Part shown: positions 9,801 to 53,664 of the stretch, in pieces
How positions within the stretch are numbered: the first letter of the stretch is position 1
How the letters are laid out: the number at the start of each line of letters is the position of its first letter
DNA from: Clostridia bacterium
Lineage (GTDB): Bacteria; Bacillota; Clostridia; Oscillospirales; Acutalibacteraceae
Direction: 5' to 3'
NCBI GenBank assembly: GCA_017537365.1
Contig: JAFYKZ010000025.1
Coordinates: forward strand, 1-55,188
DNA length: 55,188 nucleotides
The notes under the pieces: generated by a model
Told to the model about the DNA's origin: nothing
Seen by the model: only the letters and a program-made list of their open reading frames with translations
Databases searched by the model: none
Translations under genes and position numbers: made by a program

Positions 9801-9944
9801 TGCGCGAGCCTCAGGTGTGTTATCGGGTGCTGGTATTTCGGATATTTCACAAGGAAGCTCATCTATCTTATTATATAAAAATTTTCTATATTCCCAGAAT
9901 AATCTTTTAACCTTTTCAATGGTTTTTTGAGTGTAGGTTTCCAA
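6831..9944 (-). CDS. GH38 alpha-mannosidase
   Basis: This is a 1037-residue cytoplasmic alpha-mannosidase. After an N-terminal beta domain (about 1-265) comes the GH38 catalytic barrel with GHSHLDTAWLWP (zinc ligands His276 and Asp278) and FWQPDTFGYSAAIPQ (Asp388, nucleophile and zinc ligand). A mid alpha-helical domain and C-terminal beta-sandwiches follow, as in bacterial and class II alpha-mannosidases. The start is TTG: AAGGAGG stands 8 nt upstream and no better ATG exists. The enzyme would release mannose from imported alpha-mannosides. The gap to the upstream SIS gene is 18 nt. Confidence 0.93.
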   Translation of the reverse strand: METYTQKTIEKVKRLFWEYRKFLYNKIDELPCEISEIPAPDNTPEARAKFQAAMPEGNWKKANSGDKWGEEFGYAWVRSDYTVPNEFEGKKLLLRPNVGLVEGLLFLNGKASGIFDVSPDIPSDFRLHEVQPLTLDAKGGESFQIAIECYAGHKILGTRPYENGEVDKWSFYPANFVHTFYSVDIVECDETVAEFLNLHRIVKQILDCYAENTASYSAAANAFCELFKILPLQPEEVDFDWHPSLKKANEILKSVTDRKSQEGEELGYVGLIGHSHLDTAWLWPVRETLHKAARTFSNALRLMEIYPDYHYLQSSVVYIDWMKKYYPDIYENIKKRTAEGRWEPNGGAFVECDNNIPAGEYIIRQFLIGQRYTKENLGYMADCFWQPDTFGYSAAIPQILKGCGIKYFLTTKLSWNEANTFPHDSFVWRGIDGTEVLTHFNITFAWPDICDVKNKALYSIKHPESTNMKLLSYGYGDGGGGPSYSMLETEKIVKDMAGMPKLESTTVSKFMQRLEETSKNLPVFTGELYLELHRGTLTQLHEIKRTNRLLEKAIHNYELLSVMTDNTDEELRSRTLKTLLLNQFHDILPGTCLADAHDVAIYENKKAIDEVESGIESLFNGEKSVKSICNTLSFERKDQIILKNTDFIPENTIVQQYTDIYGDKCTAVSGITLPAFSVSQLKSGTAKSAECPFKVEGNQINTPFADIVMEKGRFVSYKTKRGLEVVSDKNIPLNTLYFGEDIPQIWDNWDIDYDQSQKMHPVLDFVSSEVVSIGALQLRIRIKYKFAESELSQDIVFYSDNPRIDFESEVDWNSTHSLLKVGFKVNVLSDVARFETQFGNIKRPTHENYPTDKTQFEVCNHKWTDLSDTRFGVAILNDCKYGISVDGNDMRLTLHKGGWRPDPRGDKGVHKFTYSLLVHETGFSTESVIKPAYELNYPALVLDGEATLKNCGSFLNVDADNVIIETVKPAEDGNGFIARVYETEGAYTLCNLEFNSSVKSVFKTDMLEYNDEPIDSKNNSIKLSFKPFEIKTLRFKK

Positions 9945-11682: not shown

Positions 11683-14600
11683 TTAACTACGCTTTGAGCG
11701 TTTTTTTACAATAATGAAGATAGTTTCGGCAGCAATAACCACAAGACCGATAACACTAAACAATACATATTTCAAAACATTTAATATTGTTTTTTCTTCC
11801 CCGATTGGCTTGATAATCGAGCTTAAAGGATTCTTTTCGCCAAGCGGCGCCTTCTTAAAGCTTGCAACCAAAGTTATAGGAGCATTAACGGGAGCTTCCA
11901 TATTATACTCGCCACCGTCTTCACTTAGCCATTTATCAAACTTGTATCCGTCCTTTGTCGGTATATCGAATATTTGAGCAGTTTCTCCTGCAAAAACATT
12001 CAATCTCTTATAAAGAACACCGTCTACCATAAGTAAAACAGGATAAGTGCGCTTCTGGAACTTAGCCTTGAAAACAGTATCAAGATAAATACCATCTGTA
12101 TCAAAATTCCATTCCTCGCCAAACTCAGTAAACCAACCCATAAAGAGCTTATCGCCTCTGTCGGCTAGTTTTCCGTAAGATTTAACTGTATTACCTCTTA
12201 AAATTTTATGAGAAGCTAATAACTTATCACCATCATAGAAAGATACAGTTTTATAAATATCTATATTTCGCAAAACACCGGTGTTTGGCATACCCTGGAA
12301 GAATACATCTGAGCCTTCGATATTAGCTCTGTTATCAAATTCCTCAAAGATTAGTTCGCCGTTTATATAAACTGTTAGAACCTTAACACCCTTATAGCCC
12401 TTATTATTAAGTACACGAACACCAACTTCGAATAAATACTCTTTTCCGCCGATAATATCATATTTAAGATTTAAGGTTGGCAAACCGCCGTCAACACCGC
12501 TTGAATACACATAAAGTGTATCAAACTTAGTGAAATATAGCTTTGCAAAATAGTTTTCATCCCATTTTGGTGAGAAGCTTATCTGAGGACCGTTTTGCAT
12601 ATTTTCGGTTGGAATATAAATTGCCTTAAATACGCGACCGCCTGTTTTAGCTGCTTTGTGGTAGGTATAATTCTTGGTATTTGTTGCACTTACCTTTGAA
12701 ACCTCAAAGTCATTATAGATACCTAAATCGCGCAAGCTGATTTCATCATAATCATCAAAACTATATTCTTCAAACAAAGCGGTAACATTCATATCCTTGG
12801 TAACATTGCCCTTGAATATTGCACCGTTTACTGTCCAACCGGCAAATACATGACCCGGTTTTTGAGGCTTCGGCAATTCATCAAGAGTTTTACCAACCTC
12901 AACACGATATGTAAGTATCTTTCCTTCAACATTTGCCTTAATCACTTTAACGAATGCAAAATGCGCATAAAGACTCATATCGTTATATACGGTATCAGCG
13001 TTTTCGTCCCAAAGCTTGCCGCCTGTTTTTTCAGTATACCAACCAGCAAAAGGAACGCCGTTTTTAGCCGCAGGCTCTTTAACCTTTGGTAACAATCCGC
13101 TACGCTCAACCTTATAAGTTCCCATAAAGGTATTTCCATTATAGAACTTAACGGTCTTATAAACAGGCTTGTTTATAAGATAAGCAGAACCTGAGCCACC
13201 ATGGAAATAGAACAGATTTTCACTAAGGTCAGCCTTGCAACCGATATATTGAACTAACAATTCACCGTTTACGGTAACCTCAAATACCTTCTTGCCCTCA
13301 TAGCCCTTATTCTTCATAACACGAACAGCAAATTCAATGTCATACTGTTTTCCTGCTTCGAGTGAAAGCATTTTTGAGATATCAGGACCGTTTTCGTATG
13401 TACCACTATTATAAACATGGGACATAGTGTTAGTCTGGAACCAAACTCTTGCAAAACTGTTCTTAGACCAATCATTAGTTAGTGCGATTTGAGGACCATC
13501 ACCATTGTTCATATTGCCAACGGGTTCAAGAATAAATTGAAGCAAACGACCGCCGCTTTCTGCGGTCTTTTCGTATTTATATACGGTATTTGTTTGATTC
13601 AATACCTTATTTTCCTTAACGCCTAAATCTTTAAGCGAAACGGTATCATAAGGTTCAAACTGAATATTCTCAAATTTAGCAGTTAAGGTAATATCGTTGT
13701 TTGTATAACCATCATACTTTTTGCTTCCGTTATAGAAGCCAACGAAAAGCTTACCCATAACTTTAGGAGCTTCGGGCATAAAGTAAACACCGTCAAACGA
13801 CTGATAGGTATACTTTTTACCTAAAACATCAACTGTAATAATATTAGGCTTTTCGTTAGGTGTTGCATTTTTATCAAGCAATATATCCTTAATAGAATTT
13901 AATGTTGCTTCAGAAAGACCAATATAGCCAGTAAGGAAGTTTTGGATTGCGGCCTGCAAATTTTCACTGCCATCACCGTACTCTTCGAGCATACGCTTAT
14001 ATGTTCCGTCCAACGTAAGATTTGGTTGGTAAGAATCAGCCGCTCTGAGACCTATTGCACTAAATGTAGTAAGCTCATACTCAGGACGGATATCATCATA
14101 CGAAACACCCAAAAGTCCATAAAGCAAGAATGCTAAGGTACCAGTTCTGTCAGCACCTGCAGAGCAGTGGAAATAGAAGGGATAATTATCTTTGTTCGCC
14201 AATTTCTCAAACATAGCCTTGTACTGGCTTATCTGATTGGAGTTCATTGTGAATATTTCCTGATAAGCTGCGCCCTGTGTATAATGCACATTTGAATTGT
14301 TCTCATCCCAAGGGGTATAATCGTGGTCCATACCGCCTCTGAGTTCTATTTCGGATTTCATTCCTAAATACTCAAATACATAGCGAGCATCATCATCAAG
14401 ATGAGATGTGTATTCATCAAGCGCGGCACCGCGATAAATAAGCTCATATTTAACCTTATCGCCGTCAGCATTTACCTGACCGCCCAAATCACGCATATTT
14501 ATAACATTTCCTGCGGTAATGTAACGAACAGGGGTGTTTACAACAGTGAAGCTATCAACCGCACTGCATTTGCCGGTGTTATTTCCGCAAACAAACCAAT

Positions 14601-17079
14601 AATAAGTTTTGCCTGGAACAAAGATACCAACCTCATTTGTAAGCGAGGTTTTTGTTGTTGTAACTATATAAGCATCTTCAAAGTCTTTATTATCTGCAAA
14701 GTAAACGGTATATTTACTGTTTTTGCCGCTATCAGTCCACTTGAATGTTGTGTTTTGATAGTCTTGATAGCTTCTTTGCGCCGCAGAATAATATTGTTTA
14801 ACAAACGCTGTCTGCTTAGAGGTCTCGGTTGATAGATAATCGTGTATCATATCAGTGTTAAGATAAATCTTCGTTTGCTCTGTAAGCTTAACTGCCGAGC
14901 TAGAAGACGGAACCTTAACAGTATAAACCGCATTAACAGTCATACTCTTGGTAAGACCGTTTACATTATGCTCCTCCCATTTTCCTGTTGCATTTTTGAT
15001 TGCAGGAACGGCAGGCTCTTTACCGCTAACGGTTGGATTACTTAATACAAACGCAACCTTTTTAACAAGCTTGCCGTTCGCATAATAAGAAACAAAATAC
15101 TCTTTCTCTTTATATTGAGCAATAAATGTTGTGTCTTCGGTTATTCTATCATTTTCAAAATCGAAAATCTTGCCGGTTGCCTCGTTTTTCCAACCAACAA
15201 AAGAATATTCAAAGCCTCCGTTTGAATAAGAAGGTGCAGCAGGGGGAGTTATGAGAGCTCCTTTACCTGTTGTCATGGCAGAAACTGTGCCGCCATTAGC
15301 ATCTTTAAAGGTTACATCAACCGCCTCGGTTGTAAATCTAGCATAAAGATTTATGTTGCTTGTAAGCTTAGTGTTTTTAAAATCGAATAGCTTGCCGCCT
15401 GATTTTGCAGTATACCAACCAATAAAGTATTGACCGCTCTTTTCAGGGTCGGCAGGCTGTTTTGCAGTAAAGCCTTTTTGAGCTAACTGGTCGAGATAAA
15501 GCTCATCGCCAACATAATATTTAGCGCGAAGCTCATTGTAACCCATAACCTGAATTTTTTCGATAGCTTCAACATAAATTTGCTGACCAGCCTTCGGTCT
15601 TGATTCGGGGTTAGCATAGAAAGAACTTACAATGTTGCCATCAATTTTGAGGTATACATAGTCTTTTCCTTTGTTAACTCCGGAAGCAACACGAATTCTA
15701 CCTTGCTCAAAAGCATACCAGGTGTTACTTTCAAATTTAAAGCTCTTTGTTCCGCTGGTACAGCCATCAATTTCCCAACCGAACATAATTTGGCTCTTTT
15801 GACCTGCAGAAATATATGCACGGCAGTTACCGCAGTTACCGCCTATATCAACAACCATAACCGAGCCGTCCATAGCGGCATCGCCGAATTCACCGGTTTT
15901 AAGAACATATTTAACAACGGTTGAATTGGTTGCTGAGGTAAGGTTAGCAGGATATGTATAACCTAAGAAATTATCGTGTTTTGTGTCTTTCGCAACACCG
16001 CCCGGAATGATATCACCAAGATTCACATAGTCAACATCAGTAACATATTCGTCAGGCTTAGCAAAGCCTGAGAAGCCTTGCTTTGAAACACCGTCATTTA
16101 CAAAATGAACAGTATAAGTTCTGGGGAATTTGTTGCCGTCATAAGCGTCATATCCGCCGGCAGTCTGATAATGTTTAGTATATTTTGAGGCTTTAACATC
16201 ACCATCTATTTTAAAGAACACATAGTCCATGCCCATATTAGGACCTGCTGTAACGCGAAGTCTACCAAACTCAATATCGTGTTTACCGCTTGTGTATTGC
16301 TCATCAATCTTAACACGCAAATCAGTAAATGAGCCTTGACCTGGGCAGAAATAAATAGCATCATCTCTGAACCATACCATGCAGTTAGCATTCCAATAGG
16401 TATCAAGAGCCAGTTTCCAGTCGATATCGCCGGTTACTTTGGCATCCCAACCCATTTTAACGATAACTGAATATGTGTCGGATTTTCCTTTATAGCTATA
16501 TGAACCGCTCTGAACAGAAGTTTTATAATCAGTTCCTGATAACCCCAAATCAGCGAGAGTAACTGTATCATATTTATCGGTAAATGCTTCGGGTTTAGAA
16601 CGCATATCTTCACCTATACTAATATTCTTGATTTTAGTGCCTGCGGGGAATGTTGTTGCAATACGAATTCTTGATACAGCCTTTCCAACATGCGAAGAAC
16701 TATGCGGAATGGTTGCTAAAGAAACTATATAGCGATACCAACCATCTTCAAGCGGTTCTACAACCATGCTAAGACCTTCTACACCATCTTTTAAACGAAA
16801 TTCGGTTGCAACCTGAGCGCTTCCGTCATAAAACCTCAATTTGCAAACATCAGAATCCGAGATAAGCACATTAAGGTCAAATTCGAGCGTTTTACCCGAT
16901 TCAAGATAATTTTCAACCTTTTCGGGCAAATCAAAATAATCGCCTTTCTTAAAAGTAACGCCCCCTTCAGCCAAATCGGCGCGCACACTTTGAATAGGCG
17001 CAATTATATTGCTAACCACCAAAACAGCAATAAGCAATAAGCCCATAATCATTTTAGATTTTTTAAATTTCAACATCAT
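11683..17079 (-). CDS. Giant membrane-anchored protein: beta-sandwich and InlB-type repeats with tyrosine-phosphatase-like domain
   Basis: This is a 1798-residue exported protein. A signal peptide (MGLLLIAVLVVSNIIAP region) leads. Beta-sandwich modules that open with Y-D-x-[VI]-[ST]-L-x-D-L occur at about residues 170, 1145 and 1470. InlB/Listeria-Bacteroides repeats (FxGWYTxxxGGKxxD type) lie at about 520-720, 1080-1140, 1330-1450 and 1640-1760. An FN3-like domain (about 735-850) precedes a Y_phosphatase3-type domain (about 850-1066) with NMRDLGG and the catalytic loop HCSAGADRTG (Cys972, Arg978). A membrane helix (about 1770-1793) and basic tail anchor the C-terminus. I chose the ATG at 17079 because AAAGGTG stands 9 nt upstream; the ATG at 17091 is too close to it. 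The target of the phosphatase is unknown. Confidence 0.85.
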   Translation of the reverse strand: MMLKFKKSKMIMGLLLIAVLVVSNIIAPIQSVRADLAEGGVTFKKGDYFDLPEKVENYLESGKTLEFDLNVLISDSDVCKLRFYDGSAQVATEFRLKDGVEGLSMVVEPLEDGWYRYIVSLATIPHSSSHVGKAVSRIRIATTFPAGTKIKNISIGEDMRSKPEAFTDKYDTVTLADLGLSGTDYKTSVQSGSYSYKGKSDTYSVIVKMGWDAKVTGDIDWKLALDTYWNANCMVWFRDDAIYFCPGQGSFTDLRVKIDEQYTSGKHDIEFGRLRVTAGPNMGMDYVFFKIDGDVKASKYTKHYQTAGGYDAYDGNKFPRTYTVHFVNDGVSKQGFSGFAKPDEYVTDVDYVNLGDIIPGGVAKDTKHDNFLGYTYPANLTSATNSTVVKYVLKTGEFGDAAMDGSVMVVDIGGNCGNCRAYISAGQKSQIMFGWEIDGCTSGTKSFKFESNTWYAFEQGRIRVASGVNKGKDYVYLKIDGNIVSSFYANPESRPKAGQQIYVEAIEKIQVMGYNELRAKYYVGDELYLDQLAQKGFTAKQPADPEKSGQYFIGWYTAKSGGKLFDFKNTKLTSNINLYARFTTEAVDVTFKDANGGTVSAMTTGKGALITPPAAPSYSNGGFEYSFVGWKNEATGKIFDFENDRITEDTTFIAQYKEKEYFVSYYANGKLVKKVAFVLSNPTVSGKEPAVPAIKNATGKWEEHNVNGLTKSMTVNAVYTVKVPSSSSAVKLTEQTKIYLNTDMIHDYLSTETSKQTAFVKQYYSAAQRSYQDYQNTTFKWTDSGKNSKYTVYFADNKDFEDAYIVTTTKTSLTNEVGIFVPGKTYYWFVCGNNTGKCSAVDSFTVVNTPVRYITAGNVINMRDLGGQVNADGDKVKYELIYRGAALDEYTSHLDDDARYVFEYLGMKSEIELRGGMDHDYTPWDENNSNVHYTQGAAYQEIFTMNSNQISQYKAMFEKLANKDNYPFYFHCSAGADRTGTLAFLLYGLLGVSYDDIRPEYELTTFSAIGLRAADSYQPNLTLDGTYKRMLEEYGDGSENLQAAIQNFLTGYIGLSEATLNSIKDILLDKNATPNEKPNIITVDVLGKKYTYQSFDGVYFMPEAPKVMGKLFVGFYNGSKKYDGYTNNDITLTAKFENIQFEPYDTVSLKDLGVKENKVLNQTNTVYKYEKTAESGGRLLQFILEPVGNMNNGDGPQIALTNDWSKNSFARVWFQTNTMSHVYNSGTYENGPDISKMLSLEAGKQYDIEFAVRVMKNKGYEGKKVFEVTVNGELLVQYIGCKADLSENLFYFHGGSGSAYLINKPVYKTVKFYNGNTFMGTYKVERSGLLPKVKEPAAKNGVPFAGWYTEKTGGKLWDENADTVYNDMSLYAHFAFVKVIKANVEGKILTYRVEVGKTLDELPKPQKPGHVFAGWTVNGAIFKGNVTKDMNVTALFEEYSFDDYDEISLRDLGIYNDFEVSKVSATNTKNYTYHKAAKTGGRVFKAIYIPTENMQNGPQISFSPKWDENYFAKLYFTKFDTLYVYSSGVDGGLPTLNLKYDIIGGKEYLFEVGVRVLNNKGYKGVKVLTVYINGELIFEEFDNRANIEGSDVFFQGMPNTGVLRNIDIYKTVSFYDGDKLLASHKILRGNTVKSYGKLADRGDKLFMGWFTEFGEEWNFDTDGIYLDTVFKAKFQKRTYPVLLMVDGVLYKRLNVFAGETAQIFDIPTKDGYKFDKWLSEDGGEYNMEAPVNAPITLVASFKKAPLGEKNPLSSIIKPIGEEKTILNVLKYVLFSVIGLVVIAAETIFIIVKKRSKRS

Positions 17080-17143
17080 TATTGCATTCACCTTTCATAA
17101 TATATTTATATTTAAAAAGTCGTATAAAACTTAATAATAACAG

Positions 17144-17275: not shown

Positions 17276-20200
17276 TTATTCAGCAGGAGCATATTTTGCA
17301 ACTAATGCATCAATAGCAGCGTAATCAGTTGATCCGTCATGGATGTAACTGTAAATAGCTTTAGCGCTCAACTTAGCTTGATAAGGATAATCCATATCAT
17401 CATAGCAATAGAACAAACCAAAGTAAGTTTCAGATGCACTAGCGCCCTTATCTGTTGACATATCGGCAATCTGATAGAAGATTACAGTATCAATAAAGGT
17501 AAGCTCGTTATCTAACTTTGTGAGTGCTTTTGTGATGATTTTAGAAACATTTTCCTCATCGCGTGCATCACCATAGGTAGACATACCTGTTTCGGTTATC
17601 CAAACGCGGCTGCCGCCATCGTTATGAGCCTTAACTTTGTTGTAAGCCTCATTAATGTAACCTGCCCACTCATTAACCTCTTTGTTTGCGTTGGATTCGA
17701 AATTATCACCGAACCAAGCATCATCCTCAGCATAATCAGGATAAGCATGGAGGTTAACGATTGTGAAGTAGTTATCAACTCTGGTATCAGCAACACCCTT
17801 ATTTATCGGATGTGAACCTGATTCAATAGCATTGTAGAATGCATCAATAAAATCATCTTCAATAGCATTCTTATTAGAACCTACAACGATTGAAGGAGAT
17901 GTTACCTGATTTGCAGAATCAACCGATTTAACAGCCTTAGAAATATACCAGCATAGGTCTGCCATAATAGCAGCTTTTTCTTCAACAGTATATTTGAAAG
18001 GAGTTCTGTCTGCATCAGATTCCCAAGCAATACCGTATTTCTCAAATCTTGTACCGGTAGTATTGATTTCATTGAAAGGCTCAAAGAATTTAATCTCAGG
18101 AACTTCTTCTGCTAATGCTTTAAATGCAGCAGCATTTACTTCAAGCCAAGCAATATAGTTTTCTGTATCAGATTTTGGATTCGGAACAGTTATATTGTGG
18201 TTCTTAGTAATATCGCTGTAATTTACAGGAAGAATAAATGAATCGGTTACATAAAGAATATCATTAATTCCTCTTTCTTTAAGCTCAGCAACCATTTCCT
18301 TGAAAGCTTCCATATTATCTTCTCTAACAGCAACACCGTTAGTTGCAGTTACATAATATAAATCGTGAATCGGCTTGCTTAAACGGTATGAATTAGCACC
18401 TAATGCAGCAGTAGCATCAGCGATATATTCAGCTGTTTTGCTTTCATCTTCACCAAGATGCTCTTGAACACCTATTGAAAGCTTGCCTGATTTAGCATAA
18501 GAGTTAACAGGAGCTAAATATTTCTGAATAGCGATTAAATCGAGAATATCGGTTTCGCCATCGTTATTGAAATCAGCAATACCCTCAGGCTTTTCAGACA
18601 TATCTATTAAACCTAATAAGATTTTCTTCATAGATACAAGGTCGCTTGCATTGATAACGCCATCGCCATCAAAGTCGCCCTTTGTACCCTCAGGCATAAT
18701 AATAGGTTTCTTCTCTTTGTAAGCACTGATTTCGTTATTCTCGCTGTTCCAATATGCGAAGAAGATTTCGCCTGATTTAACATTGCAGCTTGCATCGCCG
18801 GGTTTAGTTACATAATTACCATTAGCATCAACTAAACTTGCATCAACATAATCTTCAGCTATGATAACATCATCAATCTTAATGTATACATAATATTTGC
18901 CCTTGTTAGGACCGTTTGCAACTTTAAGTCTTGCGAACTCAACATTATAAGAGTTGCCTGAAACTAAAACAGAAGGCATTTCAACCTCTGGACCGTAAGA
19001 AGGTCTTAACCACATTCTACCGCTAGGATATTTTGCCTCTTCGCCAGGTGCTGCTAACCAAGCGCCAAACATATAAGACATATTGGTTTCAGTTTTATCT
19101 TTTTCAGCGTTATAATATTCAGCTTTTTCAAAGGACATCTGGAACTTAGGAACTGAACCAACAGTCCAATTATACTTGAAAAGAACAGAGCCTGTTGGAG
19201 ATGTGCGGTCATAATACAAGGAAGTACCGCCTGACATATGTTTCTTAGTTCCAAGAGTATCGCCGTTTGAATCCTTCAAATCTTCAAAACCAACTTCATC
19301 ATAAGCTTCATACTCTTCAACAAAAGGAGTAGCAGTTACTGCGTTGCCTGCAGGTAATTCGATCTTAATTACATTTGTTAATTGACCGCTTTTACCATAT
19401 GTACCATCAGCATTAACACCATCATAATAGTATGATTGAATCAATTTACCGTTTACCATATAGTAAACATAATATTTACCTGCGTGTTCGCCGGTCTTCA
19501 CCTTTAAACGACCAATCTCTATATCATAAGCCTGACCTTTTACGATAGGCTCATCCATATTCACCATAAGGCTATCGTTAGAAGGAACAAGATGCCATGC
19601 GCCATTCTCGCCAGGTACCGCACCAAAGGTAGATTGGTAAGGTGTTTTAACTGCATAGCAGAATGCATACTCTGATGAAGTGCCAAAATATGTAGTGAAT
19701 TTCGGCTCATCACCACCGGCAATCCAACGATACTTAAATTTAACAGAATATGTAGGTGATGTTACATTATAAGTATACTTTTGAGTAGAATCCATGGTTT
19801 TACCAGCCATAGAAATTTCGCCTACATACAAATTGTCAAATCCGATTTCATCATATTCATAATATGGTGATTCGGGTTCTTCTGGCTCTTCAGGAACTTC
19901 GGGTTCTTCTTCAGGAATTGAAGAAATGATGCCATCCGCAGTACCATTTACCATACGAATGATATTTGTCGGAGCCGGATTGGTTAATGCATCTGTATAA
20001 TGAGCTTTGATAGGCTCGCCATTAACGGTAAGAGAAACATAGTATTTACCTTTATTTTTACCGTTCTTTACCAAAAGACGAGTAAATTCGATATCAAAAA
20101 TCTCGCCGTTTTCTATAGGCTTATCTAACTGTTCGATACTGCTATTATTAGAACAGTCAAGATGCCATGCACCGTTTTCGCCTGCTACTTTTCCACCACC

Positions 20201-23200
20201 AACATCGGTAAGGGGCGGTTTTGCAGCAAAGCCATATGGATGATTAGGCCAAGCGTCATAATAAACAACAAGTGATGCTACTGTGCCTGCTGTCCAACGG
20301 AACTTCACTTTTGCAGAATATGATGGAGAAGTTGCTTTATATGTTATTTTTCTGTTAGCGCTTAAATCTATACCATTTGCAGGTAGCGAATTGCCATCTA
20401 TACGGAAATCTTCATATGTTACTTCATCATATGCATCATATTCTTCTACATAAGGAGAAGGAGCGATAGTCTGAGTGCCGCCACCCCAACTTGAGAAGTA
20501 AACTCTATTGGTCATGGTGAAAGGTGTGTCAGATTTAGGATCGGAGTTAGAGGTGTAAACACCCTGCTTGCTAACTAAACTACCATCAATATAACATTCA
20601 TCGATTAACTCGCCATTTATCTTAAAGTATAGGTAATAATCGCCTTTGTTTTCACCATTTTTAACTTTAAGTCTTCCAAGTTCAAGGTCGTAATCTTTAC
20701 CAACTTCAAGAGGTGCCTTTAAGCCAACCTGTGCTCTGTAGCCAACGCTTAACCAAATTTTACCGTTAGGATCATCTGTATTCGGTGGGGTCAACATAAC
20801 ACCAAATCTATAAGCAAATTTATCTTCTGTATCAAAACCTAAGTAGAAGTTTGTTTTCTCTTTATATTCTTTCAAACGGAATTTTACAATAGCCGAACCG
20901 GTTTCAGAAGTTTTATTATATGTGTAGGTCTTGGAACCAACAGTGTAGCTATCGGTTGGAAGAGCACTACCATTTGCGTACATATCATAATATGTTACTT
21001 CATCGTATGCATAATATCTTGAATCAGGATCGGGGTCATAAGGAGTTGCAGAAATTTTGCAAGTATTATTGTCTGCAAAACCAAGGAAAATCTTATTACC
21101 TAAATAATTAGCAGTATTTACATCATCTGCAGCTACATACTTTTCAAAGATAATTTCGCCATCTACCTTGAAGTAGGTATAATACTTACCTATATTTTTT
21201 CCGCTAGCTACCTTAAGTCTGGCAACTTCTAAATCGTAGTAATCGCCGGATGTAGGTTTGGAATTTAAAGCTACCGGAGAAGCCGCACCATTTGCTTTGT
21301 GTTGCCAATGGTTATCTTGTAAGAAATATGCAAAATTATTTTTGCTGCCCCATCCTTGCATGTGAATTTCAAATTTAGCCAATGTTTCCATTGTCCAACG
21401 TAATTTGAAAATTACAGAATGTGTTTTAGCTGCTTCTGTTGATTCAACATATGAAACTGAGTTATTAGTTTTTGTTAATTGAATACCGCCGGGGGTAAGA
21501 GGATTATTACCTGTATCCAATAAATCTTCATATCCAATTACGTCGTATGCTTCATATTGCTCTGCGGGTTCAACATATTCAGAAATTACATCATCTTTTC
21601 CGTTGCCCCAACCGCCGAAACGAATTTGGTTGGAAACTTGGCAATCATATTTATTAGCGGAAGAATAACCGCCGTTTTCATCGGTATTAGAATAGCCTTC
21701 TTGAATAAGCTTGCCGTTTACCTTTAAATAAACATAATATTGACCAACGATTTTGGGGTCGCCCTCTAAAACCTTTAAACGACCAAATTCAATATCAAAG
21801 GTATCACCCTGCTTAACTGCAGTATCCATCTTAACTGCAAATTCTTCTTTGTTGGGTTTTAAGTGCCAAGCACCGTTAGGAGCAACCTGGTCTGCTCTCT
21901 TAATCCAAACACCGAAAGGATGGGAAATGTTGCCGTTTTCACCTATATCGAACGAGAACTGGAATCCCGGTTTTGAACCTGCGGTCCAACGGAATTTCAA
22001 TATTGTAGATTTTGTATCAGATGTTGCATCATAAGTGAGGGTATGACCGCCGCTAATAGTATAGCTATCACCTAATTTGTTGCCGTTTTCTTTCAAATCA
22101 GCATAAGTGATTTCATCATACTCATCATATTTGGTTTCAGGAGCAGCACCTAACTCTGCATCCAAAGTTGAGAACTTAACCGAATGATAATCATAATCAG
22201 ATAAATCATTTTCGTCTAATTCGATAACACCGTAGCCTCTTATAGCTTCGTCGCCATAGTTGAAATAGGTCATACCGGGAACAGCAGTGATTTCAACGCC
22301 GTCTTCTTCAAACTTGCCGCTAAAATCATTTAAGTGGTCATGACCTGAGAATACGCCTAAAACATTACCCATTCTCTTAAGAGTTGCGTATTCACCGGTA
22401 TTATCATCAGCATAAATTGAATGAGGGAACTCGCCGGTTGAACCCACAACACCGTCTTTCAACTGCATTGCATATTTCTTATTACCGTAAGAACCTTTAC
22501 CGTTTTCATCCTCAACATAGAGATTCCATGTTTCAGGCATTGGGATATGCTGGAATACTAATGAATTAACACCTGCATCGTTATTAGCTTCCATCCAAGC
22601 TAATTGATCAGCATGAGGATTATCGTATCCACTGCTAGTATCTTCAGGGTCTTGATAAGAACCTGAGTCTACCATCCAAAGATTGAATGCTAAATCATTG
22701 CTATTAGATGCATAAATCGGGATTTTGCAAGTACCTGTACCCCAAAGGTCAGGATCAGCATCAATTGTACGGCAATCACCGATTGACTGCCAAACTCTTA
22801 ATAACGCCTCTTTGTCAGCAACAGGAACACCTTCTGCACCTGATTGTGGATCGTGGTTACCAAAAACTATTGAATACGGAATACCTGCTTCAACAACAGG
22901 TCCGAGTATTTGTGTAACTGTTTTTCTGTAATCAACCTCAGGGTCTTTTGTATTTATTTCGGTCATATCGCCTAAAAATACAACGAGGTCTGGATTTTCG
23001 CGTTCTATTGCCTGTTTCATTATATTGAGAACTCTTTGATGAACAGGATATTGGTCTTGAACATCAGAAAAGATAACAACTTTAAATTTGCCATCTTTAA
23101 ATTTCAGGGGAGTTTGTTCTGCACTTGCAGTCATCGGCACTGCAAAGAAAGAACCGAGCATAGCAAATGTTAAAACAAATGCTAATAGTTTCTTAAACTT

Positions 23201-23209
23201 TTTTCCCAT
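17276..23209 (-). CDS. Giant exported protein: metallophosphoesterase, six tandem repeats, dockerin, glycosidase-like domain
   Basis: This is a 1977-residue secreted protein. The signal peptide ends at about residue 30 (MTASA). A calcineurin-type metallophosphoesterase spans about 40-350, with SDVQ (Asp49), LGDMTE (Asp81), FGNHD (Asn118, His119), FQHIP (His221) and SGHDH (His290, His292). Motif I reads D-x-Q, not D-x-H. Six repeats of about 190 residues start near 364, 555, 735, 927, 1119 and 1303. A type I dockerin (about 1511-1566) has two calcium loops, DFDGDGVINASDL and DFNNDGETDILDL. A TIM-barrel glycosidase-like domain (about 1575-1975) has FNE (Glu1714) and WITETG (Glu1873) as likely acid/base and nucleophile. 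The ATG at 23209 is preferred over 23284 because it starts the signal peptide and has AAAAGGAG upstream. The dockerin implies docking to a cohesin encoded elsewhere. Confidence 0.88.
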   Translation of the reverse strand: MGKKFKKLLAFVLTFAMLGSFFAVPMTASAEQTPLKFKDGKFKVVIFSDVQDQYPVHQRVLNIMKQAIERENPDLVVFLGDMTEINTKDPEVDYRKTVTQILGPVVEAGIPYSIVFGNHDPQSGAEGVPVADKEALLRVWQSIGDCRTIDADPDLWGTGTCKIPIYASNSNDLAFNLWMVDSGSYQDPEDTSSGYDNPHADQLAWMEANNDAGVNSLVFQHIPMPETWNLYVEDENGKGSYGNKKYAMQLKDGVVGSTGEFPHSIYADDNTGEYATLKRMGNVLGVFSGHDHLNDFSGKFEEDGVEITAVPGMTYFNYGDEAIRGYGVIELDENDLSDYDYHSVKFSTLDAELGAAPETKYDEYDEITYADLKENGNKLGDSYTISGGHTLTYDATSDTKSTILKFRWTAGSKPGFQFSFDIGENGNISHPFGVWIKRADQVAPNGAWHLKPNKEEFAVKMDTAVKQGDTFDIEFGRLKVLEGDPKIVGQYYVYLKVNGKLIQEGYSNTDENGGYSSANKYDCQVSNQIRFGGWGNGKDDVISEYVEPAEQYEAYDVIGYEDLLDTGNNPLTPGGIQLTKTNNSVSYVESTEAAKTHSVIFKLRWTMETLAKFEIHMQGWGSKNNFAYFLQDNHWQHKANGAASPVALNSKPTSGDYYDLEVARLKVASGKNIGKYYTYFKVDGEIIFEKYVAADDVNTANYLGNKIFLGFADNNTCKISATPYDPDPDSRYYAYDEVTYYDMYANGSALPTDSYTVGSKTYTYNKTSETGSAIVKFRLKEYKEKTNFYLGFDTEDKFAYRFGVMLTPPNTDDPNGKIWLSVGYRAQVGLKAPLEVGKDYDLELGRLKVKNGENKGDYYLYFKINGELIDECYIDGSLVSKQGVYTSNSDPKSDTPFTMTNRVYFSSWGGGTQTIAPSPYVEEYDAYDEVTYEDFRIDGNSLPANGIDLSANRKITYKATSPSYSAKVKFRWTAGTVASLVVYYDAWPNHPYGFAAKPPLTDVGGGKVAGENGAWHLDCSNNSSIEQLDKPIENGEIFDIEFTRLLVKNGKNKGKYYVSLTVNGEPIKAHYTDALTNPAPTNIIRMVNGTADGIISSIPEEEPEVPEEPEEPESPYYEYDEIGFDNLYVGEISMAGKTMDSTQKYTYNVTSPTYSVKFKYRWIAGGDEPKFTTYFGTSSEYAFCYAVKTPYQSTFGAVPGENGAWHLVPSNDSLMVNMDEPIVKGQAYDIEIGRLKVKTGEHAGKYYVYYMVNGKLIQSYYYDGVNADGTYGKSGQLTNVIKIELPAGNAVTATPFVEEYEAYDEVGFEDLKDSNGDTLGTKKHMSGGTSLYYDRTSPTGSVLFKYNWTVGSVPKFQMSFEKAEYYNAEKDKTETNMSYMFGAWLAAPGEEAKYPSGRMWLRPSYGPEVEMPSVLVSGNSYNVEFARLKVANGPNKGKYYVYIKIDDVIIAEDYVDASLVDANGNYVTKPGDASCNVKSGEIFFAYWNSENNEISAYKEKKPIIMPEGTKGDFDGDGVINASDLVSMKKILLGLIDMSEKPEGIADFNNDGETDILDLIAIQKYLAPVNSYAKSGKLSIGVQEHLGEDESKTAEYIADATAALGANSYRLSKPIHDLYYVTATNGVAVREDNMEAFKEMVAELKERGINDILYVTDSFILPVNYSDITKNHNITVPNPKSDTENYIAWLEVNAAAFKALAEEVPEIKFFEPFNEINTTGTRFEKYGIAWESDADRTPFKYTVEEKAAIMADLCWYISKAVKSVDSANQVTSPSIVVGSNKNAIEDDFIDAFYNAIESGSHPINKGVADTRVDNYFTIVNLHAYPDYAEDDAWFGDNFESNANKEVNEWAGYINEAYNKVKAHNDGGSRVWITETGMSTYGDARDEENVSKIITKALTKLDNELTFIDTVIFYQIADMSTDKGASASETYFGLFYCYDDMDYPYQAKLSAKAIYSYIHDGSTDYAAIDALVAKYAPAE
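18721..22120 (-). repeat. Six tandem coding repeats (~190 residues each)
   Basis: The units start near nucleotides 22120, 21547, 21007, 20431, 19855 and 19303. Each opens with Y-[DE]-x-[IV]-[GT]-[YF]-x-[DN]-[LMF]. Most then show K-[FL]-[RK]-[WL]-T and GAWHL or an equivalent. All carry [YF][DN][IVL]E[FILV][GAT]RL and YY.[YS].[KT][VI][ND]G. The unit ends in an N-x-[IV] strand and an acidic, proline-containing linker. The fold looks like an all-beta, concanavalin-like sandwich. I do not recognise a named family. Confidence 0.8.
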
Positions 23210-23338
23210 AACTTTTTCTCCTTTTATAGAATTTTTTTGATTGCTTTGCAACAAAGCAATTGCCTTGGGACATGCAAATTTCATTTCTTCCTAAAATACC
23301 ACCTTTCTCTAAAACATTTATCCGTCTCTTTTTATATA

Positions 23339-23422: not shown

Positions 23423-24673
23423 TTACTTAGGCATAAGCTCAGGGCAGTATTTATAAAGCGGAGAAACATCATCCGTTTTATGAATATATTTATAAAACTC
23501 TAATGTTGCGGGCTTCGGACAACAAGGCTTCTCAGGGTCGCCGAAAGAGGAGAAGAAACCAAAGTTATCTTCGCTATCACTTACCGAATAACCCGAATAG
23601 TCGTTAAGCATATAGAACATAACCGCTTCCAAATAGGGCATTTTCTCGTTATACATTTCGAGAAGCGGCACCATATTTTCGCCGTTCATCACTTCTCTGG
23701 CTTCGTTGCCGTTATCTGTGAAACCACATTCAGTTATAATAGCAGGTTTACCCGCGTCGTTATGACGCTCGCAAGCCTTATAAAAGCTATCGCAATGCTC
23801 GAAATATTCTTCCAATGTTGTATCATTCAAATACTTATGGAAATTAATAGAATCAAAATACTTATCAGGGTCGGTTTCTGCAAAATCCTCTCCGTAGGGA
23901 TGAGCGCCTGATTCTATTGACTCATAGATATAATCTAAAATATCATGACCTTCACCGTGGGTTGAGAAACCTGGTGTTGTTACAATAACTTTCGGATTTA
24001 TCGCTTTAACTTCCTTATATATGTAATACTGCAAATCGGCTATCATATGAGCCTTTTCGGTTATGCTGTATACATATCCGTCGTCAACACCCCATTGATG
24101 TCCCTGCTTAGTAAATATATTTGCTCCCGGAAGTTCAGGCTCGTTCATAGACTCAACATGAGTAATTTCAGGAAATTCTTCAACAATCATTGCCCAAGCT
24201 TTTGCATAAAGCTTAATCCAACGGATATACATATCCTTTTCAACCGCAGGGTCGGGAACAACACCCGAAGTTGTTACCGAATAACCGTAAGGATAAATTG
24301 GAGCATCGCTTACCGCAACGAACTTCTTTATACCCGATTTAGACATCTTTTCAATTACTTGATGAATAAGCTTTCTTTGTCCCTCTTTGAAAACAGGGGT
24401 GTCTCCTTCTTCAACCTCAAACATCGAATCGAGCGGAGTGCTTAAACGGTAATATTCAAAACCGAAAACACCTGACATATCTGCAATATTATCAAGAGTT
24501 GAGCTCGGGTCCATTACAGGACGAAGTTCAAATACATGCGCATTAATTCCGTATTTCAAAGGGGTTTCTCTCTTAGTAATTGCCCCGCTATTAGTTTTGC
24601 TCGAGTTATTATCACAACCGGCAACACAAACAACAAGCAAAATCACTAAAAAAACAGCAATTATTTTTTTCAT
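23423..24673 (-). CDS. Exported lipoprotein with TIM-barrel glycosidase-like domain
   Basis: This is a 416-residue lipoprotein with signal and lipobox VVCVAGC (Cys20). The body is homologous to the C-terminal domain of the giant metallophosphoesterase protein. Shared stretches include YRLS.P, GI..[FI]..VSD, E.[PF]NE, YTE or ITEKA.MIADL.[YW]YI, AIESG.HP and the nucleophile strand. Candidate catalytic residues are Glu178 (in ESMNEPE) and Glu315 (in IITECGF), the pair expected of clan GH-A retaining glycosidases. Exact family and substrate are unknown. Its ATG overlaps the stop of the upstream gene by 4 nt, so translation is coupled. It is probably held at the outer face of the membrane next to the transporter. 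Confidence 0.82.
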   Translation of the reverse strand: MKKIIAVFLVILLVVCVAGCDNNSSKTNSGAITKRETPLKYGINAHVFELRPVMDPSSTLDNIADMSGVFGFEYYRLSTPLDSMFEVEEGDTPVFKEGQRKLIHQVIEKMSKSGIKKFVAVSDAPIYPYGYSVTTSGVVPDPAVEKDMYIRWIKLYAKAWAMIVEEFPEITHVESMNEPELPGANIFTKQGHQWGVDDGYVYSITEKAHMIADLQYYIYKEVKAINPKVIVTTPGFSTHGEGHDILDYIYESIESGAHPYGEDFAETDPDKYFDSINFHKYLNDTTLEEYFEHCDSFYKACERHNDAGKPAIITECGFTDNGNEAREVMNGENMVPLLEMYNEKMPYLEAVMFYMLNDYSGYSVSDSEDNFGFFSSFGDPEKPCCPKPATLEFYKYIHKTDDVSPLYKYCPELMPK

Positions 24674-27360: not shown

Positions 27361-27452
27361 AATATCATCTACCAATCCTTAGTAAATGCGATAATCAAAA
27401 CCCTTTTTTAAGTTTGGATTTTCGCCTTTACTTTGTTTAAATACTTGTTAAT

Positions 27453-28424
27453 TTAGAAATCAACATCAGGGGTAATCTTATCAGTAACCTTTTTAACCAC
27501 GATTACCATAACCGATACCAATACGGTTAAAATAAAGCCTACTGTAGAAATCAAAGGCATATCAGAACTCTGAGCCTTCGGCGCCATAGTAAACATATAC
27601 CAACCAACCGTATTATAAACACTGCCCGGTCCGGTTGTGTTTCCTGTCAGCAACATCGGTTGGATATAGAAAGCAGATACTGCCATAACCGAGTTAATCA
27701 GGAATACGCTGATAGTAGGCATTATGAGCGGAATATGAATTTGGAAAAGCTCGCGCCAGAAACCAACACCGTCCAGCTTTGCCGATTCAATAACGCTCTC
27801 AGGTATACGAGACATTGCAGACGCCATAAGAATAATATTAATACCTGCACTCGCCCAAACGCAGAATATTGAAATTAACCACCAAATTGTATTAATAACT
27901 GCGGGGTCGTTCAGCGTTGTTTCCCATCCGTTATAATTAAAGCCTAACATTCTAAGCAATTCTGCCGCAGGACCCTGAAGCATTCCGGGGCTATATGTAA
28001 ACATATAACGGTAGCAAAGGGTTTGGATTACGATAGATATCATGGTTGGCAAATAGAAAATTACACGGAACACCTTTTCACCGCGAATATGCTTTGAAAA
28101 GGCATATCCGATAATAACCGCCAACACAAGACAGGCAATATTAATAGGAAGCGCCCTGAACGCATTGAAAAACATATTCATGGTTTCAGGTCTCTCTTTA
28201 AACTGCCTGAATTGCTCGATAAAGTTATCTATTCCCGCAAATTTATAGGTATTTGCGAAATAATCCCAATCCATAAAAGCAAGTGAGATAGTTTCAACAT
28301 TTATGTAAAGCCAGAAAACTATAAAATGAAGCATCGGAACAATTAGTAAAGATGCAATAAACAAATTGCGTTTCAAATTTTTTCTTGGCCTTTTCGGTAT
28401 TTGGTTTCTTTTAGAATTAACCAA
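27453..28424 (-). CDS. ABC sugar transporter permease, MalF/LplB type
   Basis: This 323-residue membrane protein has about six spans and the coupling EAA loop ESAKLDGVGFWRELFQIHIP, which contacts the ATPase. The N-terminus is long and basic (KRNQIPKRPRKNLKRN). Translation starts at TTG with GGAGG 9 nt upstream. It works with the second permease and the binding lipoprotein of the same operon. The order permease-binding protein-permease is less common than binding protein first. Confidence 0.93.
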   Translation of the reverse strand: MVNSKRNQIPKRPRKNLKRNLFIASLLIVPMLHFIVFWLYINVETISLAFMDWDYFANTYKFAGIDNFIEQFRQFKERPETMNMFFNAFRALPINIACLVLAVIIGYAFSKHIRGEKVFRVIFYLPTMISIVIQTLCYRYMFTYSPGMLQGPAAELLRMLGFNYNGWETTLNDPAVINTIWWLISIFCVWASAGINIILMASAMSRIPESVIESAKLDGVGFWRELFQIHIPLIMPTISVFLINSVMAVSAFYIQPMLLTGNTTGPGSVYNTVGWYMFTMAPKAQSSDMPLISTVGFILTVLVSVMVIVVKKVTDKITPDVDF

Positions 28425-28463
28425 TGCGATATACCTCCAAATTGGTATAATATAATTTCTTTT

Positions 28464-30062
28464 TTATTTTACTTCGGTCATACGGAACTTTTTAACATAA
28501 TTGTTCTTTGAAAGGTCGAAGGTTCTTCTGACTTCCTTCATAATTTCAGCACCGTTTGTTTTCTTAAGCATATTCATAACAGTTGCAATATTTAAGTCTG
28601 CAAAAACAATCGGGCTTTCGTAAGTATATATAAGTGAAACTGCATAAGGACTTTCCTTATAAGCTTTAAGCGGGAAATCATAAACCTTTGTGCTGTTATA
28701 GTAAACATCGAAAACGCTCTCATTGTATTTAGTTAAAGCTTTGTCCTCAATTTCTCTTGCATCATAATTGAAAGGACGGATACCGCCGTTTGAACGAACG
28801 GTAAATTTCTTTAACTGGTCTTCGCTGCAAAGGAATACTAAGAATTCTTTTGCTAAATCCTTATGAGCTGCAGCACTAGGTACAAACATAAGGTCGTCAT
28901 AGGCACAATATAAATATTTCTCATTTTCATGGCCGTCAAGAGAAGGAATATTCATAAAGCGAATATCTGAATCCTGCTTGCCATCGGAATCACTGTCAAG
29001 AACACCGGTAAGTCTGGCTTCGGATTCACCGAAGGAACTTGCAAATGCGATTACAGGTCTTTCCTCGTTACGCTCGGCGTATAATGCACGGGTAAGCTCC
29101 TGAGTTGTGATAGTGTTAACAGCAGAAAGGCTGTTTTTGTAAGTACCTGTTTTTGTATCAATAACAAGTTTTTTGAAATTATCAAGCGTAGCGGCTATAC
29201 CCTTTTGCTCGAAAACCTTGCTTGAGAAGGTTTGGTTAAGAGTGGTCTTTGAGGTGTTGCCGAAGTTCCAGAAATCATAGAAGCTTCCCTCTCCTGCAAC
29301 ATTTGAATCATAAAGACCCTGATATTGAGCCCACCAGGTGAACATAAAGTAATAAACCTGCTCTAATGCTAATGCAGACCAACCAAACGGAACATACTTA
29401 TGACCGTCTTTGCTCTTATAAGCATTGATATCATCGCAAAGAGCTAACCATTCGGTAAGATTCTTAGGAGGAGCTATCCATTTATTTGTAGCTTTATCAA
29501 CCGATTCTGCAGAAACAGCAGTGGAAGATGTATGAGGGATTTTCTTTAAAGCATCATAGTTATAAGCCAAAGACATAGGCATTGCGGTGAACGGAACAAT
29601 CCAGGGATAAGAATCGCCTGTTCCAACCTGTCTTTCAATATAGCAACGGCCAACAACCTCTGGGTCTATGTAATCCGAAATCTTAACATCGCCCTTTGAG
29701 GTTTTAACGGTTGAATCAAAAACACTTTTAAGGTTTTCAATATATCCGCTTTGAACCCAGCTCTGCCAACGGTTTGAAGAGCCAATATACAAGTCTGCAA
29801 GATTTTTACCTGCTGTTAAACTGTTCTCTGCACCGCAGTCCATATCGGAAGAAGGAACAACCTGAACCTTAACGCCTTTTTCCTCGGCAAATTCCTTAGC
29901 GGCTGTCTCAATCCAATCATCACCGTAAGCACCTGAATAGTATTTAACAACTAAATCATAATTCTTACTGTCGGCATCTGAACCGGATGAACCGCAAGCG
30001 GTCATACAAGCAAGAATAGCACCAACCAGCGCCACCGCCAAAAGTCTTCTAAAAATTTTCAT
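28464..30062 (-). CDS. Extracellular sugar-binding lipoprotein (ABC family 1)
   Basis: This 532-residue lipoprotein has signal peptide MKIFRRLLAVALVGAILAC and lipobox MTAC|GSSG. The mature part has the open alpha/beta look of family 1 carbohydrate-binding proteins (DLVVKYYSGAYGDDW, KEFLVFLCSEDQLKKF). At 532 residues it is longer than typical monosaccharide binders (about 420), which fits an oligosaccharide ligand. AGGAGATG precedes the ATG. It sits between the two permease genes (gaps of 28 and 39 nt). Confidence 0.92.
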   Translation of the reverse strand: MKIFRRLLAVALVGAILACMTACGSSGSDADSKNYDLVVKYYSGAYGDDWIETAAKEFAEEKGVKVQVVPSSDMDCGAENSLTAGKNLADLYIGSSNRWQSWVQSGYIENLKSVFDSTVKTSKGDVKISDYIDPEVVGRCYIERQVGTGDSYPWIVPFTAMPMSLAYNYDALKKIPHTSSTAVSAESVDKATNKWIAPPKNLTEWLALCDDINAYKSKDGHKYVPFGWSALALEQVYYFMFTWWAQYQGLYDSNVAGEGSFYDFWNFGNTSKTTLNQTFSSKVFEQKGIAATLDNFKKLVIDTKTGTYKNSLSAVNTITTQELTRALYAERNEERPVIAFASSFGESEARLTGVLDSDSDGKQDSDIRFMNIPSLDGHENEKYLYCAYDDLMFVPSAAAHKDLAKEFLVFLCSEDQLKKFTVRSNGGIRPFNYDAREIEDKALTKYNESVFDVYYNSTKVYDFPLKAYKESPYAVSLIYTYESPIVFADLNIATVMNMLKKTNGAEIMKEVRRTFDLSKNNYVKKFRMTEVK

Positions 30063-30090
30063 ACAAACATCTCCTTATAATATTTAAAAT

Positions 30091-30939
30091 TTATCCTTTA
30101 ATACCGCCGCCCAAAGACACGGTCATAATTTTCTTTTGGAATACGAAATATAAAATTAAAGTGGGGATAAGCATCAAAACAATGGTTGCGAAAAGCTGTG
30201 GGTAGCTATATCCTAAATCAATCTTATCGGATATTTCTTTAACACCAACGCCGAGGGTTGGATGAGAAGGTAAGAACAGATACGGTCCCGAAAAATCGTT
30301 CCAGGTACCGATAAAGCCCATAACCCATTGCGCCGCAATCAGATTTATCGCCTGAGGACATAAAATCTGTATAAATGTTCTCCAATAACCTGCACCGTCC
30401 ATCATTGCAGCTTCGCTATATGTATGCGATATATTTTTGAATACCGAATAATACATCAAAAATCCAAAGCCCGATACACCGCAAGACATTACTATCAAGC
30501 CTATGTGCTTATCAAACAAGCCTATATCATTAAGCAGTTTATAAACATACGGTGTAGTACCTGCAACCGAAACAAACATAGGCATAAGGAATATAAAATA
30601 AAACACATTCTTTAATTTATAATCAAAACTTGCAATCGCATGTCCCGCGCAAAGCGAAAAGAAGGTTGATACCGTTGGTATACTAAGCGCAAGGAAAAGG
30701 CTGTTTACAAACATTTCCATAATATTGTTTTCACCGGTAAAAAGCAGTTTATAATTTTCAAAAGTAAAACTGGTGAACTTCCACTGGTCATAGAAAAATT
30801 CATTATTATTCGGTTTAAACGAATTTATGAACATCCATACAAGCGGTAAAAGAAGTGTTGCCGCATAAATGCAAAACAAGACAAATAAAACGCCCATAAT
30901 TATGCGGTTTTCTTTTTTTACTTTCTTAATTTTCTTCAT
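30091..30939 (-). CDS. ABC sugar transporter permease, MalG type
   Basis: This permease has about six spans and the EAA loop YSEAAMMDGAGYWRTFIQIL, and it ends with the MalG-like tail (VSLGGGIKG). A longer reading frame begins at 31035, but the first 32 residues look unlike a permease, and the predicted promoter (30976-31003) would start the mRNA inside them. I therefore chose the ATG at 30939, with GGGGGGA 12 nt upstream. It is the first gene of the unit. No ATPase gene is present; Gram-positives often share one MsmX/UgpC-type ATPase encoded elsewhere. Confidence 0.92.
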   Translation of the reverse strand: MKKIKKVKKENRIIMGVLFVLFCIYAATLLLPLVWMFINSFKPNNNEFFYDQWKFTSFTFENYKLLFTGENNIMEMFVNSLFLALSIPTVSTFFSLCAGHAIASFDYKLKNVFYFIFLMPMFVSVAGTTPYVYKLLNDIGLFDKHIGLIVMSCGVSGFGFLMYYSVFKNISHTYSEAAMMDGAGYWRTFIQILCPQAINLIAAQWVMGFIGTWNDFSGPYLFLPSHPTLGVGVKEISDKIDLGYSYPQLFATIVLMLIPTLILYFVFQKKIMTVSLGGGIKG

Positions 30940-30975
30940 TTTAGGCAAAATCCCCCCATGATTTTTTAAAATTGT

Positions 30976-31003
30976 AACATACGAGAATTTTTTTGTATAC
31001 CAA
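30976..31003 (-). promoter_or_regulatory. Promoter of the transporter/giant-protein unit
   Basis: On the minus strand TTGGTA (31003-30998) and TATGTT (30981-30976) are spaced 16 bp, the same spacing as at the GH42 promoter. Both boxes are poor matches to consensus, as expected for an activator-dependent promoter. TACAAT at 30976-30971 is an alternative -10. Confidence 0.55.
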
Positions 31004-31036
31004 AAATTAAGCAAATCATACAAAAAATTAAACATT
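30992..31036 (-). promoter_or_regulatory. 45-bp putative AraC operator, copy A
   Basis: This matches 36937-36981 at 39 of 45 positions and has the same orientation relative to the regulated gene. Read on the minus strand it contains successive T-rich boxes of the type TTTTGC-AT / TTTGC-TAA / TTTTTGGTA, about 10 bp apart. The last box covers the -35 region. Confidence 0.7.
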
Positions 31037-53620: not shown

Positions 53621-53664
53621 TTTAATCAACCCCTAAATGAAATTTAATAACAAATAAAAAATAA

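Follow-up and report, generated by a model that had tools for sequence, protein, structure and literature searches.

Arrays of predicted concanavalin A-like modules, a putative new CBM family, in phosphatase and glycosidase proteins of gut Clostridia

The locus and its module arrays

The window (the whole stretch of DNA analysed, 55,188 nucleotides of contig JAFYKZ010000025.1 from an Acutalibacteraceae Clostridia bacterium, assembly GCA_017537365.1) holds two very large modular proteins, here called protein 1 and protein 2. These and the neighbouring genes of interest, all on the minus strand, are as follows.

3859..6804, minus: GH106-like enzyme (PF17132, 50.3 bits)
6831..9944, minus: GH38 alpha-mannosidase-type enzyme (PF01074)
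11683..17091, minus: protein 2, 1,802 aa; four modules, phosphatase domain, Listeria-Bacteroides repeats
13876..14508, minus: tyrosine-phosphatase-family domain, protein 2 residues 862-1072 (PF13350, E 7.7e-27)
17276..23284, minus: protein 1, 2,002 aa; signal-like start, phosphoesterase, six modules, dockerin, GH-A-type catalytic domain
17276..18490, minus: GH-A-type catalytic domain, protein 1 residues about 1599-2002 (PF00150, PF11790)
18515..18682, minus: dockerin type I, protein 1 residues 1535-1590 (PF00404, 41.7 bits, cut-off 22.9)
22334..23086, minus: calcineurin-like phosphoesterase domain, protein 1 residues 67-317 (PF00149, E 9.6e-11)
23423..24673, minus: lipoprotein-like GH5-type glycosidase (PF00150)
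27453..31035, minus: sugar-type ABC importer; permease, solute-binding protein, permease (PF00528, PF01547)
32361..34787, minus: second GH38 enzyme (PF01074)
34826..36829, minus: GH42 beta-galactosidase-type enzyme (PF02449)

Further genes at the locus code for a GDSL esterase, SIS and ROK proteins and an AraC-type regulator, and no match to GH76, GH92, GH99 or GH125 was found among the window genes scanned. By eye, residue 26 looks the likelier start of protein 1. Searched alone, its glycosidase domain matched PF00150, which we take to be a member of clan GH-A, at 27.1 bits and PF11790 at 23.5 bits, both over cut-off; within the whole protein it gave only a sub-threshold match to Glyco_hydro_cc (19.9 bits, cut-off 21). 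The lipoprotein-like glycosidase is a paralogue of this domain (29% over 405 columns, E 9e-51), and neither of the two matched a solved chain at E up to 1, the best such match of the protein 1 phosphoesterase being at E 0.082 only. Protein 2 has a signal-like start, six stretches of the Listeria-Bacteroides repeat and, by eye, a C-terminal membrane segment. Six dockerins and three cohesins over cut-off were found in the host draft genome, the cohesins lying one per protein in proteins of 237-476 aa that, judged by eye, each have a membrane-type segment.

The original prediction placed six tandem repeats of an unrecognised family at 18721-22120. The six are genuine, lie in one open frame and cover 18713-22129, so that the predicted span was accurate to 10 bases or fewer. 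With borders cut from motif positions, and with types that are explained below, the modules are:

21563..22129, minus: protein 1 module 1, type A; fold modelled
21023..21556, minus: protein 1 module 2, type B
20447..21016, minus: protein 1 module 3, type C
19895..20440, minus: protein 1 module 4, type F
19319..19864, minus: protein 1 module 5, type G; the nearest relative, L011, has another type in this position
18713..19312, minus: protein 1 module 6, type E
16057..16581, minus: protein 2 module 1, type I; residues 171-345; fold modelled
15496..16050, minus: protein 2 module 2, type H; residues 348-532
13126..13659, minus: protein 2 module 3, type J; residues 1145-1322
12226..12759, minus: protein 2 module 4, type J; residues 1445-1622

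The array of protein 1 occupies residues 386-1524 in modules of 178-200 residues. In protein 2 the three copies that had been named are present, and the count was short by one: in the fourth (module 2) the opening motif is degenerate. The two final copies preserve this motif, as had been claimed, but have the second-half landmarks in weak forms only. Pairwise identity is 28-38% among the six modules of protein 1 and 12-37% among those of protein 2. Leave-one-out profiles, each built from nine copies and searched against the tenth, recovered 10 of 10 (E 1.1e-43 to 3e-12, 42.9-145.1 bits), and the best score among shuffled controls (200 for each of the ten modules) was 10.4 bits. When the host genome (1.72 Mb in 31 contigs) was searched with the profile, only the ten window modules were returned.

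Relatives, module types and exchange

Relatives were sought in 84,980 genomes with a single pattern of the opening motif, a scan that undercounts because it requires this motif. It matched 20 stretches, 13 of which encode relatives, in 12 loci (L011-L022) from eight MAGs; five of the eight came from samples of goat, water buffalo or horse, and the relatives belong to a few gut Clostridia. In whole-genome samples, which overlap and each count the window's own genome, matches were found at family level in 3/150 genomes, at order level in 2/394, at class level in 5/391 and at phylum level in 1/398; three of the five at class level are short and marginal. The marginal hits (G158, G159 and G280, E 1.2e-4 to 8.3e-4) cover only part of a module, and G159, where the similarity is confined to a brief stretch of a beta-helix protein, was left out of the relatives. 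No module match came from G1075 or G1241, two other genomes of the window's genus, and one pattern scan of viral contigs matched 51 stretches, none of them encoding a relative.

The relatives also combine modules with enzymes. By Pfam, one G066 protein has a phosphoesterase, a dockerin and a GH5-type domain, a second a dockerin and a GH5-type domain, and a third Y_phosphatase3 and repeats; L018 and G066 share an identical 806-aa stretch and so may be one genome. L014 has modules with a dockerin and a GH5-type domain, its phosphoesterase being a separate gene downstream, L016 has a phosphoesterase and a dockerin, L020 has Y_phosphatase3, and L015 carries Laminin_G_3, a dockerin, a purple-acid-phosphatase N domain and a C-terminal phosphoesterase. 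Four modules with no recognised catalytic domain were found in L022, and G016, of another genus in the same family, has two modules followed by a region resembling, by eye, the protein 1 glycosidase, Pfam reporting repeats only.

From L011-L040 we took a further 85 modules (E at most 1e-12, starting by profile position 6 and reaching position 140, identical or contained domains dropped), 95 with the window's ten; seven of the 85 were left out of the alignment (A3) as near-duplicates or fragments. In a quick maximum-likelihood tree of the 95 modules (branch support by SH-aLRT alone, stars on 35 of the 92 inner branches, and a flag on some long-branch joins as unsafe) the clades are related to position in the array. 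Types were assigned by clade, with 4 of the 95 rows outside any type and with types H and K at nodes that lack good support after re-rooting. Type A is the first module in 7 of 7 proteins beginning with a phosphoesterase, a set identified by Pfam for the window, L016 and G066 and by eye for L011, L012, L013 and L015, the last of which is truncated at the beginning; L014 has its type A modules in fourth and fifth place. Among the six Pfam-confirmed dockerin proteins (window, L014, L015, L016 and two in G066), four have a type E module at the end of the array and two a type G3 module, and in middle positions the types vary.

Comparison of protein 1 with its nearest relative, L011, gave a mosaic. 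Modules 2-4 are 98% identical and the flanking parts 84-88%. Mismatches per base were 149/979 in the phosphoesterase, 68/565 in module 1, 32/1662 in modules 2-4, 250/546 in module 5, 79/600 in module 6 and 234/1428 in the rest. Modules 1 and 6, the phosphoesterase and the terminal part with dockerin and glycosidase have a dS of 0.44-0.57, and modules 2, 3 and 4 have values of 0.076, 0.089 and 0.017. Module 5 is 40% identical and of a different type; in the tree the L011 module 5 falls with the two copies of module 6 from these genomes, and that of the window with modules of L013. The stretch of low divergence begins somewhere in gene bases 1716-1794 and stops somewhere in 3374-3444, and the breakpoints coincide with module borders (1722/1729 and 3390/3421). 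Modules 2-4 and 5 seem to be products of recent exchange. The mosaic is most simply read as exchange at module borders, with recombination, we infer, as its cause, and the apparent trade in whole modules among related bacteria probably serves the recognition of varying sugar chains. A rival account of the mosaic alone, compatible with any reading of function and weighed apart from those, is that the 98% block and the odd module 5 are mis-joins between strains. Repeats invite such mis-joins, the window's assembly is in 31 contigs, L011 is a metagenome-assembled genome and L012 looks collapsed in the array region; against this, both breaks fall at module borders and other genomes have different module orders in open frames, which makes an assembly chimera a possible but doubtful source of the pattern.

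The divergence of the copies had been taken to imply long retention and selection. Selection appears to be purifying, with dN/dS against the nearest relative at 0.13-0.21 in modules 1, 2, 3 and 6 (module 4 gave 0.43, on so few changes that the value is uninformative); long retention explains the arrays only in part, given the apparent recent exchange of modules 2-4 and 5.

Named families and predicted fold

In keeping with the prediction of an unrecognised family, the modules gave no significant match in Pfam, NCBIfam or PHROGs, and a profile search of these collections returned no strong hit to a named CBM, LamG or DUF family, named matches being limited to the domains flanking the modules. 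Scanned singly against Pfam, none of 88 modules gave a significant match and no family matched more than two of them at E up to 1, among 25 listed of the 26 families matched. Matches to DUF5484, Adeno_knob and PapC_N (E 0.18-0.81, scattered and weak) and to phrog_10587 (E 0.09) in the array region were taken as chance, as was Adeno_knob in the single-module scan (best E 0.0041, 2 of 88 modules only). Laminin_G_3 (PF13385) is not among the families matching protein 1 or protein 2, nor among those 25 of 26, and the same Pfam scan detected it elsewhere in L015. No kinship was found between the modules and either the LamG-type domains in L015 and L016 (hhalign probability 1.8%) or a 901-aa neighbour protein. 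Against the sequences of solved structures the ten-module profile matched the mitochondrial-ribosome protein mS33 (E 0.012) and neurexin-1 (E 0.062); these were given no weight because the 88-row profile matched no solved chain up to E 10. In the parts of the literature open to our search no description of these modules was found, and one may still exist in print.

AlphaFold2 models of module 1 of protein 1 and module 1 of protein 2 (pLDDT 85 and 91) are both concanavalin A-like, lectin-type beta sandwiches, two-sheet jelly rolls. Their structural neighbours by VIA-align include CBM66, levan fructotransferase, galectins, laminin G and BT_1020. By structural element, strands and loops are equally conserved (mean entropy 2.26 and 2.28). 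A strong match to a named family or a fold other than a sandwich would have spoken against the original prediction; as no significant named-family match was found and both modelled modules are sandwiches, neither was seen.

Functional readings and known systems

Fold and context together suggest that the modules may be glycan binders, although a shared fold is by itself no proof of function, which counts against a CBM reading. The modules are discrete domains in a carbohydrate-active enzyme, a dockerin and a GH5-type domain lying in the same chain in protein 1 and likewise in G066 and L014. From the content of the locus together with the dockerins and cohesins we infer a secreted, surface-docked, multi-module glycan-gripping enzyme. 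The best explanation, to which we give a probability of roughly 0.68, is that the modules are a new putative CBM family (new in being set apart, by sequence, from the families of Pfam, NCBIfam and PHROGs), forming multivalent, exchangeable glycan-recognition arrays on surface-docked or anchored phosphatase-glycosidase machines. Protein 1 would be secreted and docked by its dockerin on a cohesin-bearing surface protein, its six different modules would hold a complex glycan, and the phosphoesterase and the GH-A-type glycosidase at opposite ends would act on it. The modules of the membrane-anchored protein 2 would do the like with the tyrosine-type phosphatase, and the neighbouring ABC importer might take up the released sugars, which the GH38, GH42 and GH106-like enzymes would trim. 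Several results count against this explanation: the cohesin carriers are single-cohesin proteins, with no multi-cohesin scaffold; the Foldseek scores are modest and headed by alginate lyases; the modules lack profile similarity to the Laminin_G_3 domains that accompany them in related arrays; and the glycosidases and the phosphoesterase find no good match among solved chains. In a bolder and rather unlikely version, about a dozen lectin-fold types under position rules would form a combinatorial array, cassettes being swapped at the conserved opening motif between gut Clostridia and so retuning the machines to varying phosphorylated fungal or microbial glycans.

Copy number varies in related proteins (six in protein 1, five in each of two L013 proteins), as might be expected if the sandwiches were a stalk that keeps phosphatase and glycosidase off the cell and apart from each other, with no recognition of sugar; distinct types conserved by position exceed the needs of a bare spacer, and together with the lectin-type fold they make this unlikely. 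We regard as improbable that the arrays attach the cell to host, fungal or bacterial surface glycans or proteins with the enzymes secondary, for the arrays are surrounded by catalytic domains, a dockerin and a catabolic-looking locus, even though laminin G and galectins are neighbours in structure space and protein 2 has Listeria-Bacteroides repeats and a membrane anchor. It is most improbable of all that the modules are themselves lyases or glycosidases of the same general fold. The first Foldseek hits were indeed the alginate lyases Aly36B and vAL-1 (E 2.5e-4 and 8.7e-4, scores modest), but their TM-scores are low (0.35-0.43 by query length) and other structures rank first in the VIA-align tables; moreover, runs of six to ten copies are usual for binding modules and unusual for catalytic ones.

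If the modules do bind glycans, as the CBM reading has it, they would add to the CBMs a family whose several types can be told apart and which is linked, in enzymes of cellulosome style, to phosphatases of two kinds; this would suggest that phosphorylated glycans serve as a food source in the guts of herbivores. If close relatives do exchange single modules, a comparison of arrays with and without a swapped module would also offer a direct test of how sugar specificity evolves.

Among known systems the closest is CBM66 of Bacillus subtilis (PDB 4b1l, 4b1m, 4azz), yet identity in the structural alignments is 5% and 11%, the window modules come in arrays of 4-6 copies, and no GH32-type enzyme was found among the genes scanned here. 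Other lectin-type folds score almost as well, differing by less than one Z unit in the case of protein 2 module 1 and following closely in that of protein 1 module 1. Laminin G and Laminin_G_3 share the concanavalin A-like fold, with no Pfam match of the window modules to the latter. Bacteroides thetaiotaomicron uses GH38 enzymes and phosphatases jointly on phosphate-bearing fungal mannan, according to PMC10154615, and the window resembles it in having two GH38 genes and two phosphatase domains, but with an ABC importer and a dockerin in place of a Bacteroides-type uptake system. On the strength of this cooperation we tentatively guess that the target could be a phosphorylated, mannose-containing glycan such as fungal mannan. 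Cellulosomal dockerin enzymes, such as those of Ruminococcus flavefaciens FD-1, are alike in having a dockerin beside a glycosidase and accessory modules, with cohesins in the genome. The host genome differs in having only three cohesins, one per protein, in proteins resembling the 'single-cohesin' proteins of unknown function named in PMC11557425, and the window differs from cellulosomes in that phosphatases are the partners.

Module-bearing proteins in other genomes

In L012 (region L012:4894-7502), a locus encoding relatives of the modules, a dockerin-like sequence follows directly after the start of module 2 and the glycosidase carries on in a different frame, so that modules 2-6 are absent. 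This absence could reflect either a deletion or an assembly collapse. The counterpart of protein 2 at the same locus is broken across two overlapping frames. A further module-bearing protein was found in a genome from another genus of the same family.

L061:604-8031, minus: module-bearing protein, 2,476 aa (genome G016)

It has two modules at its N-terminal start and 13 stretches of the Listeria-Bacteroides repeat.

Other genes of the window

24670-27375, minus: exported-looking protein, 901 aa; inspection by eye places a membrane segment at its C-terminus
37079-38368, plus: candidate glycoside hydrolase
51785-53629, minus: CHAP-domain protein

The 901-aa protein had no match in Pfam and NCBIfam scans; a close relative is encoded at an equivalent location in another module locus (L018:1910-4609), and likewise had no match in a Pfam scan. 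Sub-threshold Pfam matches to the GH88, GH127 and C5-epimerase families suggest that the plus-strand gene probably encodes a glycoside hydrolase of uncertain family. In the CHAP-domain protein several short cysteine-pair repeats were seen by eye after the CHAP domain.

Phosphoesterase motif

At 23051-23083 (minus), the protein 1 phosphoesterase has D-V-Q as its first metal-binding motif. The usual form of this motif is D-x-H, and D-[VI]-Q is common to the relatives.
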